Shown: piece after piece, positions 525 through 4,179 of the stretch | Layout of the letters: each line of letters starts with the position of its first letter | How positions within the stretch are numbered: position 1 is the first letter of the stretch | Assembly: GCF_003011885.1 (NCBI RefSeq) | Contig: NZ_PXXO01000007.1 | Span: forward strand, 62,001 to 126,000 | Direction: 5' to 3' | Length of the DNA: 64,000 nt | Source: Cyanobium usitatum str. Tous | GTDB lineage: Bacteria > Cyanobacteriota > Cyanobacteriia > PCC-6307 > Cyanobiaceae | Position numbers and translations under genes: made by a program | The notes under the pieces: model-generated | The model's input: only the letters and a program-made list of their open reading frames with translations | The model's database searches: none | What the model was told of the DNA's origin: nothing

Positions 525-1331
525 ATGGCTTCTAGCAACCCATACGCTAATCAGATGCTCTCCACCTTCCTGCAGGGCAAGGTGGCCATCGTGACCGGTG
601 GCAACAGCGGCATCGGCAAGGCGATCGTTGAAAATCTGGCTGAACTCGGCGCCAAGGTGGTGATCGACTACCGCTCCCATCCCGAGGCCACGGAGGAGCT
701 GGAGCGGGAGATCGGTAGCTATGGCGGCAGCAGCTACGGCGTTCATGCCGATGTTTCCAATCTTGATGATCTCCAGCGGCTGGTGCAGGAGGCCGTGGCC
801 AAATACGGCCGCCTGGATGTGATGGTCAACAATGCCGGCGTTGAGACCCGCACCTCGATTCTGAACACCACTCCCGATGATTTCGACAAGGTACTGGATG
901 TAAATCTGCGGGGCGTGTTCTTTGCCTGTCAGTACGCCGCCAAGCAGATGATCGCCCAGGGTGGCGGTGGCCGTATCATCAACATCTCTTCGGTGCACGA
1001 AGACTGGCCGATGCCTGAGAACACTCCCTACTGCTGCGCCAAGGGAGGGGTGCGCATGCTCACCCGCACCGCCGGACTGGAGCTGGCCTCCCATGGCATC
1101 ACGATGGTGAATGTGGGCCCAGGCGCCGTGGCCACACCGATCAACGACTCCACCATGAACAACCCGGAGTTGCTGGCCAAACTCAACGCCGCCATTCCCC
1201 TAGGCCGCATGGCCCAGCCCGAGGAGATTGCCAGGGTGGTGGGCTTCCTGGCCAGCGACGCCGCTAGCTACATCACGGCCACAACTATCTTTGCTGACGG
1301 CGGCATCATGCAGAGCAGCCCCGGGCTCTAG
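525..1331 (+). CDS. SDR-family oxidoreductase (glucose 1-dehydrogenase-like)
   Basis: Classical short-chain dehydrogenase, about 268 residues. It has the cofactor-binding TGGNSGIG motif near the N-terminus, NNAG in the middle, the catalytic Ser in NISSV and the Tyr-Lys pair in PYCCAKGG. The closest class I recognise is glucose/ribitol 1-dehydrogenase, an NAD(P)-dependent cytosolic enzyme. The substrate cannot be read from sequence. ATG 525 is preferred because the SDR fold begins about 18 residues later. An upstream in-frame start at 447 would add an unlikely 26-residue extension, and ATG 555 is also possible. It is followed 25 bases later by the channel-like gene at 1357. Confidence 0.85.
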   Translation: MASSNPYANQMLSTFLQGKVAIVTGGNSGIGKAIVENLAELGAKVVIDYRSHPEATEELEREIGSYGGSSYGVHADVSNLDDLQRLVQEAVAKYGRLDVMVNNAGVETRTSILNTTPDDFDKVLDVNLRGVFFACQYAAKQMIAQGGGGRIINISSVHEDWPMPENTPYCCAKGGVRMLTRTAGLELASHGITMVNVGPGAVATPINDSTMNNPELLAKLNAAIPLGRMAQPEEIARVVGFLASDAASYITATTIFADGGIMQSSPGL

Positions 1332-1356: not shown

Positions 1357-2070
1357 ATGCGCCTCACTCCTGCAGAGATCACTCGCTTGCGCGGGCGCCA
1401 CCGCGGATATTGGCTGACATTGGCGACTGAAGTCGCCTTGTTGCTGCTGCTGCCGGTGGCCCAGGCCCAGATCTGGCTGTTGGCGTTTCTGCTGATTCTG
1501 CTGGCGTTGGTGTTGATGGTGTTCGTCAGCCGCTATTCGCCCCTCCGCAAAACCCGCCCGCTGATTTATGGCCTGGGCGGGCTGGCCATCGCCCTTGAAT
1601 TGATCTGGCACCTGTCACTCAACCTCTGGCCAGCAGTGGGGCGGGCGCTCACCATTCCCCACGTGATCGTCTGGCTGGTCTTTTTGTCGCTTGCTGTGCT
1701 CCGCAAAGTTAAAACCCTCACCCGCGAGCCCTTTGTCACCGTGTCGGTGGTGATGGGTGCCGCTTCTGGCTACATGCTGGTTGGTATGGCAGGTGGGTTG
1801 CTGCTCACCGCCCTCTGGGTGCTCGATCCCGCCGCCTTCGACCTCACGTCCCTGCCCGCGGTGGGATCCACGGCGGCGCTGCCCAATGTGTCGGTGGCGC
1901 CTGCGCTGATGGCTGCCTCCTTCACCATGCTCACCACCATCGGCACCACGGTGCTCAAAACCAGCCATGTGGGCGGCCAGGTGGTGACCACGGTGATCAC
2001 CGTGGTGGGGCAGCTCTATGTGGCCATTCTGATCGCCTTGATTCTTGGCCGTTTTCGCTGGCGCACATGA
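1357..2070 (+). CDS. K+-channel-like membrane protein with degenerate selectivity filter
   Basis: A 237-residue hydrophobic protein with about five to six membrane segments. The C-terminal region aligns with the pore loop and last helix of the next gene. Where that gene has TTVGYGD, this one has TTIGTT (residues 193-198). The following helix (GQLYVAILIALILGRF) is a typical bacterial two-TM channel inner helix. GAGGAG at 1345-1350 gives a well-spaced ribosome binding site for ATG 1357. The last codons overlap the next start as ATGA (2067-2070), indicating translational coupling. Without the YG pair it probably does not conduct K+ alone. I infer a modulatory or heteromeric partner of the downstream channel. 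Confidence 0.7.
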   Translation: MRLTPAEITRLRGRHRGYWLTLATEVALLLLLPVAQAQIWLLAFLLILLALVLMVFVSRYSPLRKTRPLIYGLGGLAIALELIWHLSLNLWPAVGRALTIPHVIVWLVFLSLAVLRKVKTLTREPFVTVSVVMGAASGYMLVGMAGGLLLTALWVLDPAAFDLTSLPAVGSTAALPNVSVAPALMAASFTMLTTIGTTVLKTSHVGGQVVTTVITVVGQLYVAILIALILGRFRWRT

Positions 2071-2876
2071 TCAATCGACATCTCCTTTTTTATCGACACC
2101 GCTTCTATCGGCACCTCTTTTTGATTGCTACTGGTGTGGTCGCCTCCATGGGGGTGCCGTTCCCGATTCATCGGATCGGGGCCCTCGGTACGGTCGCTTT
2201 GATGGTTCTGCTGTCAGTTGAGCTCGGCGGCCCAATCCGTGCCCATCAGACCCACCACCGCTGGCCTGACACCGCCTATCGCCGGCTTGGTGTGCTGACC
2301 CTGCTGTTCCAGCTCCTCTGGATGTGCAGTCCCCGCGATTTCGCCTTTGTGGGGTTTGCCGTTCTCCTGGCCACAACGGCCTTTATTTTCTGGAGCTTGA
2401 AGCGTCTCCTGATCTGCCTGGCTCAGGAAACCCAGATCCGCATGGCCGTGCTCGGCGGAGCGGTGGCTGGCTATCTACTGCTGGGAATCAGCGGTGGTTT
2501 GCTGTTCGGAGCCCTGGAGACCGTGGCGCCCGGCAGCTTCATCAACCAGGCCGATGGAGGTCGGGAACTGCTGCTGGCTGGCTTGGGAGCGGATTCAGCG
2601 GCACATCGGATCTGGGACCTCGATTTCACCCGTATCCACTACTTCGCCTTCGTCAGTCTTACAACCGTGGGTTACGGCGACATAATCCCCGCCCTGCCGC
2701 CTTCCCAAATGGCCAGTGTGGCCTTGAGCATCTCTGGGCCGCTGTATCTGGCCATCGTGATGGGCTTGCTGATCAGTCGTTACACCCTGCAGTCTGAGAA
2801 GCAGGAGATCAGGGATTGGCAAGAGGGCGCTCCAGGCCCACCTCCACATTCAGGTGCTGATTCGGACGACCGGTGA
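2067..2876 (+). CDS. Potassium channel family protein (Ion_trans_2)
   Basis: A 269-residue membrane protein with several N-terminal hydrophobic segments and a C-terminal two-TM pore module. The canonical K+ filter TTVGYGD lies at residues 199-205 and is followed by the pore-lining helix LYLAIVMGLLISRY. A short polar tail (about residues 243-269) has no RCK domain. The start overlaps the stop of the preceding channel-like gene (ATGA). The 3' end overlaps the convergent NDH-2 gene by about 68 bases. It is likely a plasma-membrane K+ channel. Gating and partner are unknown. Confidence 0.82.
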   Translation: MINRHLLFYRHRFYRHLFLIATGVVASMGVPFPIHRIGALGTVALMVLLSVELGGPIRAHQTHHRWPDTAYRRLGVLTLLFQLLWMCSPRDFAFVGFAVLLATTAFIFWSLKRLLICLAQETQIRMAVLGGAVAGYLLLGISGGLLFGALETVAPGSFINQADGGRELLLAGLGADSAAHRIWDLDFTRIHYFAFVSLTTVGYGDIIPALPPSQMASVALSISGPLYLAIVMGLLISRYTLQSEKQEIRDWQEGAPGPPPHSGADSDDR

Positions 2877-4179
2877 TCAGCATCGAGGCCCGCTGACGGG
2901 TGGCGATCGCCCACAACCATTTGGTGAGCAGGGTCAACCGATTTTCATTGGCGGGCATGAACATCAAGTGGGCCAGGCCCCAGAGGATCCAGCCCGGCAG
3001 GCCACTCACCTTGAGGCCGCGGAGGTCGGCTACGGCGTGCAGCGGACCAAGTACCGCCATGGTGCCGAAATCGGTGAACTGGAAGGCTTTGTGGGCGCGG
3101 CCTTGAATTTTGGCCACTATGTCGGCCGCCACCCAGCCGCCCATTTGCACTGCTGGCCCGGCCATACCCGCCAGGGGTTTGCCATCGGCGGTGTGGCTGT
3201 AGGAGCACAGGTCGCCGATTACGCGGATCTCCGGATGATCCGGGATCGAGAAGTCGGGCCCCACCACCACCCGTCCGCCTCGGTCGACGGTGCAACCGCT
3301 GGCATCGGCCAGCACCTGGCCCAGATGGGAGGCCTTCACGCCGGCGGTCCAGCAGATGGTGGCGGCTTCCAGGGTGCGGGCACCTTCGCTGGTGTTAACA
3401 ACCACTTTCTCCGCTTCGATTGCCTGAACCCGTCCACCCAGCAGTAGCTCTACCCCTGCGGACTGCAGGTAGCTGCCGGCGGCGGCCGAGAGGCTCGGAT
3501 CCATCGCTCGCAGCACCCGGTCCCCCGGGTCCACCAGGGTCACCTTGCACTGGCCGGGATCGAGCTGCTTGAAGTCGCGGCCGAGGGCATGGGTCATCAG
3601 CTCCATCAGGGAGCCGGAGAGTTCGCAACCCGAAGGTCCGCCACCCACGACGACGACCGATTGCAGAAAGGCCCGCCGCGCCGGATCGGGGGTCTGCTCG
3701 GCCTCCTCAAGGGCCAGCAGCACCCGCCGGCGGATCTCATCGGCGTGCTCGAGAATCTTCATCGGTGGCGCTGCTTCGCGCCATTCGTCGTGGCCGAAGT
3801 AACTGCTGCCGGAGCCGGCCGCCAGGATCAGGTGGTCGTAGGCCAGCTGCCGGTCGTTGAACACGATCTGCTTGGCCTGGGTGTCGATCTCTTCCACTTC
3901 ACCCAATAAGACCTGCACATTGGGTGCCTGGCCCACCAGCTGACGCAGGGGTGAGGCCACATCCCCCTCCGCAACCAGCCCTGTCGCTACCTGATAAAGC
4001 AGGGGTTGGAACAGGCTGAAGTTGCGTTTATCGATCAGGGTGACGCGCACCGGCTTGCCAATTAGGGCATGGCAGGCCTTGAGTCCGGCGAAGCCCCCGC
4101 CCACCACCACCACGTGGGGCAGGATTTTGAGACTGCTATCTGGTGGATCGAGCTCAAGGAAGAAGCGTTCGCGGGCCAT
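2809..4179 (-). CDS. ndbB: Type II NAD(P)H dehydrogenase (NDH-2)
   Basis: A 456-residue flavoprotein of the FAD/NAD(P)H:quinone oxidoreductase family. The FAD Rossmann motif GGGFAG follows residue 25, and the NAD(P)-binding GGGPSG lies near residue 178. WTAGV and VIGDL are the usual second FAD contacts. The C-terminal part (GLPGWILWGLAHLMFM) is the amphipathic membrane-associating segment of NDH-2. It transfers electrons from NAD(P)H to plastoquinone without pumping protons. The symbol is by similarity; cyanobacteria carry up to three paralogs (ndbA-C), so the exact one is uncertain. The gene is convergent with the channel gene and overlaps its end. Confidence 0.85.
   Translation of the reverse strand: MARERFFLELDPPDSSLKILPHVVVVGGGFAGLKACHALIGKPVRVTLIDKRNFSLFQPLLYQVATGLVAEGDVASPLRQLVGQAPNVQVLLGEVEEIDTQAKQIVFNDRQLAYDHLILAAGSGSSYFGHDEWREAAPPMKILEHADEIRRRVLLALEEAEQTPDPARRAFLQSVVVVGGGPSGCELSGSLMELMTHALGRDFKQLDPGQCKVTLVDPGDRVLRAMDPSLSAAAGSYLQSAGVELLLGGRVQAIEAEKVVVNTSEGARTLEAATICWTAGVKASHLGQVLADASGCTVDRGGRVVVGPDFSIPDHPEIRVIGDLCSYSHTADGKPLAGMAGPAVQMGGWVAADIVAKIQGRAHKAFQFTDFGTMAVLGPLHAVADLRGLKVSGLPGWILWGLAHLMFMPANENRLTLLTKWLWAIATRQRASMLITGRPNQHLNVEVGLERPLANP

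Follow-up and report, generated by a model that had tools for sequence, protein, structure and literature searches.

Relatives of a cyanobacterial channel-like gene preserve its rebuilt selectivity filter, which suggests, as judged from sequence comparison, that the gene is neither broken nor a dedicated silent partner but encodes a cation pore with another selectivity. The gene, here called A, lies in a stretch of 64,000 nucleotides from Cyanobium usitatum str. Tous (the window), directly ahead of a paralog, B, that encodes a canonical K+ channel. Few natural series seem to exist in bacteria in which a K+ filter was altered and the alteration retained; NirBac and NaK are examples in the literature. 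Since the A/B tandem consists of full-length homologs differing most tellingly in a short loop, and dozens of natural outer-filter variants exist beside it, the residues that decide K+ selectivity become directly testable. The pair also bears on whether losing the outer sites suffices for non-selectivity.

Two overlapping, homologous channel genes

Gene A encodes a protein of 237 aa in an intact open reading frame on the forward strand (1357 to 2070, from ATG at 1357 to TGA at 2070), and gene B encodes 269 aa in an equally intact frame on the same strand (2067 to 2876, from ATG at 2067 to TGA at 2876). The stop codon of A overlaps the start codon of B in the sequence ATGA (2067 to 2070, forward strand), just as a sequence-only reading of this DNA had described. 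B carries the canonical K+ filter TTVGYGD at 2661 to 2681 (LTTVGYGD at 2658 to 2681, within the stretch LTTVGYGDIIP) and matches PF07885 (Ion_trans_2) in Pfam with an E value of 2e-10. The altered filter of A, recognized from the sequence and the family pattern, is LTTIGTT (L192 to T198, 1930 to 1950, forward strand; LTTIGTTVLK in full). Both motifs, TTVGYGD in the second gene and TTIGTT in the first, had been read correctly before. The accompanying description of A as having no selectivity filter holds for the outer half (Y-G-D), which is missing, but not for the inner half (TTIG), which is retained.

AlphaFold2 predicts for A a layout of four N-terminal helices, S5, pore helix, and S6 (mean pLDDT, 86.1), with helices at residues 5 to 30, 39 to 60, 64 to 90, 92 to 122, and 129 to 156, the pore helix at 181 to 191, and the last helix at 205 to 236. 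The chain stops at residue 237, directly after S6, and the model contains no extra C-terminal domain of the cyclic-nucleotide-binding or Kir kind and nothing else beyond S6. By eye, helix 92 to 122 has no regular Arg/Lys series of the sort found in an S4 voltage sensor, its basic residues lying only near the ends, and we rejected a voltage-gated channel on this ground. B is predicted to have the same helix order (mean pLDDT, 82.3).

The two proteins are 26% identical over 170 aa in BLASTP (E value, 0.001), and a profile-against-profile comparison aligns 221 columns with a probability of 99.9 and an E value of 4.7e-31. Moreover, the filter Gly and the S6 Gly are 22 residues apart in both. A is thus, by these comparisons, a full-length homolog of B, and the earlier claim that it aligns with a K+ channel through the pore region is borne out by the profile match, the helix order, and the spacing. 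The same homology rules out an unrelated membrane protein, one of the outcomes that had been named as fatal to the idea; a frameshift, another of these, is likewise not found in the A gene of the window. The profile homology to B, itself a PF07885 match, together with the predicted S5, pore helix, and S6, places A in the tetrameric (P-loop) cation channel superfamily.

General searches do not recognize this relationship. A has no match in Pfam at an E value of 1 or below, PF07885 included, and only 2 of the 19 members of its own profile (A1) touch PF07885, the best with an E value of 0.033. The A1 profile found nothing in the PDB at an E value of 1 or below, CNG chains included, and Foldseek returned no match to A at an E value of 0.001 or below. 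The VIA list for A starts with unrelated proteins built as helical bundles, namely complex I subunits and insecticidal toxins; rows for channel pore domains come lower, with Z scores of 6 to 7 over about 95 residues. Because these results are weak or mixed, the claim of a channel fold leans on homology to B and not on fold searches. A conserved channel-like family escapes recognition by Pfam.

Distribution and origin of the A clade

The A-type profile was run against 300 genomes from the family and 386 from the phylum. Strong matches were confined to the picocyanobacterial family, which has A at 73 places (66 genomes, 11 genera) and a related subfamily, C, in 22 genomes. The window's own genome is 2.5 Mb in size, and near matches come from Synechococcus sp. 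CS-1331, Synechococcus sp. 8F6, and Cyanobium strains. The count of places includes A-clade pieces whose matched core is at least 120 aa long and leaves out the second half of a split gene in G061 (L044/L078), two G149 fragments, one contig-end piece in G252, and G337 (core of 42 aa). Proteins were classed as A or B by the higher score of two profiles, A1 and A2, which lie far apart for nearly all rows; the sequences behind A1 all lacked GYG, and any GYG protein whose body was of the A type would still fall in A. One row, L172, is labeled A by profile, groups with C in the tree, and is counted in C.

A phylogenetic tree of 144 proteins splits A and C (90 proteins) from B and a small group E (54 proteins) with an SH-aLRT of 99; it was built from cores of 215 aa or more by a quick search, with some long branches flagged and a midpoint root. 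Twelve weaker matches examined in other families of the same class (L228 to L239) all carry a canonical GYG or GFG filter. Canonical filters in these relatives from other families make the altered one look derived, and the pattern is most simply explained, on the inferred rooting, by a single early change at the base of A and C.

Selection on the two genes was compared in ten pairs within the window's genus by the Nei-Gojobori method. For A, nine pairs have a dN/dS ratio between 0.10 and 0.23, and the tenth, whose dS is 0.01, has 0.38; for B the ratio is 0.13 to 0.38, with one pair saturated; A has the lower ratio in 7 of the 9 comparable pairs. By this measure A is under purifying selection, with no decay here.

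An altered filter kept in relatives

The sequence-only reading had proposed searching other genomes for conservation of TTIGTT, and what is conserved there is a broader pattern. Alignment counts used cores over 150 aa, giving 92 rows of A and C proteins, of which one lacks the filter region and one more lacks S6. G[YF]G[DN] occurs in none of the 92 rows, whereas G[YF]G occurs in all 50 B proteins. Across the 91 A/C rows covering the filter, the first T is invariant, the second position is T in 83 and S in 8, and the third is mostly V, I, L, or A. The Gly position follows (G 86, S 3, D 1, N 1), and the residue after it is S in 44, T in 40, N in 6, and A in 1, that is, S or T in 84 and E in none. 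The next position holds ten different residues, and the one after that is V in 74. Among the 68 A rows alone, the filter L and first T never vary, the second T and the G rank in the top fifth of columns by conservation, and the place of the second filter Gly lies at the 91st percentile of entropy.

A second mark of the clade is in S6, where Gln follows the Gly at the hinge position (G218-Q219, 2008 to 2013, forward strand), a pair kept in 90 of the 90 A/C rows that reach S6. The residue after the same Gly in B is Pro in 43, Thr in 6, and Asn in 1. By its spacing, the Gln matches position 100 of KcsA, which lies in the cavity close to the filter. In the aligned sequences, then, the altered filter is a conserved trait of the A clade, with LT[TS]xG[ST] and the GQ of the last helix kept, and its inner half is among the most conserved parts of A while the outer half varies.

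Genomic neighborhood and linkage of A and B

Upstream of A lies a short-chain dehydrogenase gene (SDR; 525 to 1331, forward strand; PF13561, E value of 3e-64), a neighbor in 31 of the 73 A places, and convergent with B lies a gene for an NDH-2-like pyridine nucleotide-disulphide oxidoreductase (NDH2; 2809 to 4179, reverse strand; PF07992, E value of 2.4e-44), a neighbor in 34. A frame of SDR, A, a slot, and the NDH-2-like gene is common to several genera, and the content of the slot varies. It holds B in nine places, all in the window's genus, and a ClC gene in 17 places of genus g10, and it is empty in five. The ClC gene starts about 12 to 190 bases downstream of A as judged by the start of similarity (L206:2728-4038 and 16 similar g10 places); one was tested (PF00654, E value of 1.4e-55), and the others were assigned by similarity to it. 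In genus g47, A, B, and NDH2 occur without SDR in three places, and in a fourth case, G061, the A gene is divided between two contigs, the second half adjoining B. The remaining 39 places have no SDR, B, ClC, or NDH2 in the DNA examined, often 1.5 to 2 kb on each side and a few times at contig ends.

B thus adjoins A in 12 of the 73 places, with a 13th split between contigs. The coupled pair that the sequence-only reading described, with one paralog short of the K+ signature, is kept in relatives, and stop and start overlap in all nine genus pairs (ATGA in 2, GTGA in 1, TGATG in 3, and TAATG in 3). The genes are nevertheless separable. In G013, a genome of the same genus with a listed completeness of 99%, A is missing and B stands alone between SDR and NDH2, with a GTG in the B reading frame within about 25 bases after the SDR stop; in G001, just a tail of B is left beside NDH2 and A is missing. 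Absence from close relatives, which had been named as evidence against the idea, is therefore found in these two genomes, but A is present in other relatives. In G015, nucleotide identity to the window is 57 to 72% over 2101 to 2800 (B), compared to 85 to 99% in A and 80 to 95% in the flanks (601 to 1400 and 2801 to 4100), and dS in this pair is 1.53 for B and 0.18 for A. Because the drop in identity is limited to B and the dS values differ accordingly, B alone appears to have been exchanged or replaced. The G015 locus (L065/L037) can also be viewed as a small cassette exchange inside a gene cluster, with the genes on either side 80 to 99% identical.

The coupling of A and B is real, yet the two are evolutionarily not bound to each other, and an obligate A-B pair as a general rule was rejected, given B without A in G013 and the many A places without B. 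The suggestion that A is a dedicated partner of B is not supported, since A adjoins ClC at more places than it adjoins B and since B stands alone in G013 and was exchanged in G015. Neighbors that change between lineages, from a K+ channel to a ClC, fit an ion-transport role of A's own better than that of a dedicated silent subunit.

As a minor observation, a 22-aa piece resembling the end of A lies on the far side of NDH2 in G146 (L226:6699-6764) and is perhaps the remnant of a second copy.

A candidate cation pore and its alternatives

We give about an even chance to the reading that A forms a cation-permeable pore of its own, one that would not be K+ selective and would have a shortened filter like those of CNG and NaK. 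In this proposal, the clade has replaced TxGYGD by T-[TS]-x-G-[ST]-x-[VL], and A would assemble as a homotetramer in which T-T-x-G provides two inner cation sites. With Ser or Thr in place of Tyr, no second Gly, and no Asp, the outer half of the filter would be wide, as in CNG (TIGE) and NaK (TVGDG), and a ring of four Gln (Q219, right after the S6 Gly) would lie beneath it. Such a pore may pass cations with little or no preference for K+. A retained inner half and a free outer half are what would be expected of a two-site, weakly selective cation pore; the likeness to CNG and NaK is partial, since the residue after the filter Gly is Ser or Thr and not acidic as in those channels. B would be an ordinary K+ channel, probably on the same mRNA as A, and A would be one module of an interchangeable ion-transport cassette beside the NDH-2-like gene, a module because ClC can be its neighbor elsewhere. 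From the NDH-2-like and ClC neighbors, and by analogy with the reported thylakoid role of SynK, we would guess at a part for A in counter-ion balance. The tetramer, conduction, low selectivity, a shared mRNA, and a role in ion balance are all points that we infer. A broader version, possible but improbable in our view, would make the six-helix cation pores of the A clade a new class among prokaryotes, recognizable by LT[TS]xG[ST] and the S6 GQ and with an ion preference of their own, in an operon whose slot alternates between K+ channel and ClC and which would set counter-ion flow across the cell or thylakoid membrane beside the NDH-2-like gene.

Alternatively, though we consider it unlikely, A could join B or other canonical channels in mixed assemblies as a subunit that conducts nothing itself or modifies its partners, tuning them like silent Kv subunits. 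Gene coupling by stop/start overlap is often seen for co-assembling proteins, and the overlap in every genus pair fits this reading, as do the homology of A and B along their full length and the recurrence of the tandem in g47. No A-bearing genome is among the 15 family genomes without a PF07885 match, which says little, because 285 of the 300 family genomes have such channels. On the other hand, 61 of the 73 A places have no adjacent B in the DNA examined (one of them being the first half of the split G061 gene, whose second half adjoins B on another contig), B does without A in G013, and it was replaced beside a near-identical A in G015. Electrically silent Kv subunits also keep a canonical filter, and A does not. 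If A instead conducted no ions at all and used its channel fold for another membrane job, for example as a sensor or scaffold, this would accommodate its unconstrained outer filter half, the failure of Pfam and PDB profiles to recognize it, and the loss of the filter Gly in 5 of 91 rows, which counts against a cation pore; the conservation of LTTxG may also come from folding of the pore helix without conduction. This is unlikely too: few columns are as well conserved as the inner-filter L, T, T, and G, the first T without exception, and A ends after S6 with no added domain for another function. The statement in the sequence-only reading that A is non-conducting is not supported, as the putative ion-binding half of its filter ranks among the positions that A conserves most.

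Turning to the remaining readings, a pore that still prefers K+ through an unorthodox filter has a precedent in TbIRK of Trypanosoma brucei, reported to select K+ over Na+ without the signature sequence (PMC5429665), and A does keep the inner T-T-x-G sites. However, the TbIRK motif GGYVG still has glycines and a Tyr, whereas A lacks the Tyr and the second Gly, making this very unlikely. A decaying duplicate of B is scarcely credible. It would explain why A lacks GYG and adjoins B, and a few copies elsewhere are indeed frameshifted or truncated (G149 split in two frames and G252 with one stop), but A forms its own clade in 11 genera and is more conserved than B. The filter conservation, the tree, and the dN/dS ratios together reject a degenerate duplicate.

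Comparison with known channels

NaK is a two-helix channel; it resembles the proposed A pore in being bacterial and non-selective with a two-site filter and differs from A in keeping the second filter Gly. Its filter is given as TVGDGN (PMC9822992), and a CNG filter grafted on NaK is described as giving a CNG mimic (PMC6091977). CNGA1 itself, reported as non-selective with the filter T-I-G-E (PMC12375067), shares with A a six-helix subunit and a T-x-G followed by a residue other than Tyr. A differs from CNG channels in ending without a cyclic-nucleotide-binding domain and in having a non-acidic residue after the Gly, and its profile matches no PDB CNG chain at an E value of 1 or below.

NirBac proteins (Anaeromyxobacter and Gemmatimonas) are, like A, prokaryotic relatives of K+ channels in which the filter was replaced and the rest of the channel conserved. 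According to the account in PMC4607889, NirBac1.1 and 1.2 form stable oligomers and are non-selective without TxGYG, and the filter of NirBac2.1 reads TTGTD. They differ from A in having two helices, a Kir domain, and replaced P-loops, whereas A adds four N-terminal helices, lacks the Kir domain, and retains T-T-x-G.

SynK of Synechocystis is cyanobacterial and of the same superfamily as A; with its filter TMTTVGYGD, it is reported in both thylakoid and plasma membranes, with a role in the thylakoid (PMC3928508). Its canonical filter sets it apart from A and makes it comparable to B. Electrically silent Kv subunits are described as paralogs that act only with a conducting partner (PMC12743448), which is the part that the sequence-only reading had in mind for A, and A differs from them by the loss of the canonical filter and, mostly, by having no adjacent partner. 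A limited search of the open-access literature found no cyanobacterial channel with A's filter in titles and abstract openings.

Paralogs with other filters

The window's own genome also encodes a C-type paralog (L074, G000:C5:32100-35600; open reading frame at 1425 to 2294, reverse strand) with the filter TTIDSP, one of the five rows without the filter Gly. It has Asp where the other C proteins seen keep Gly, a nearby Gly is Trp, and by eye it is placed after an xseB-like end. In group E (L087, L088, L089, and L090), the filters read GGLGYGD, AGLGYGD, AGLGFGD, or STLGYGD, so that the TT before the Gly is changed. The family has a second tandem of paralogous channels, in another genus (L240, G160:C1:377700-379700), where two adjacent E-like open reading frames on the same strand carry, by eye, the filters GSLGYGD and GTQGYGD.
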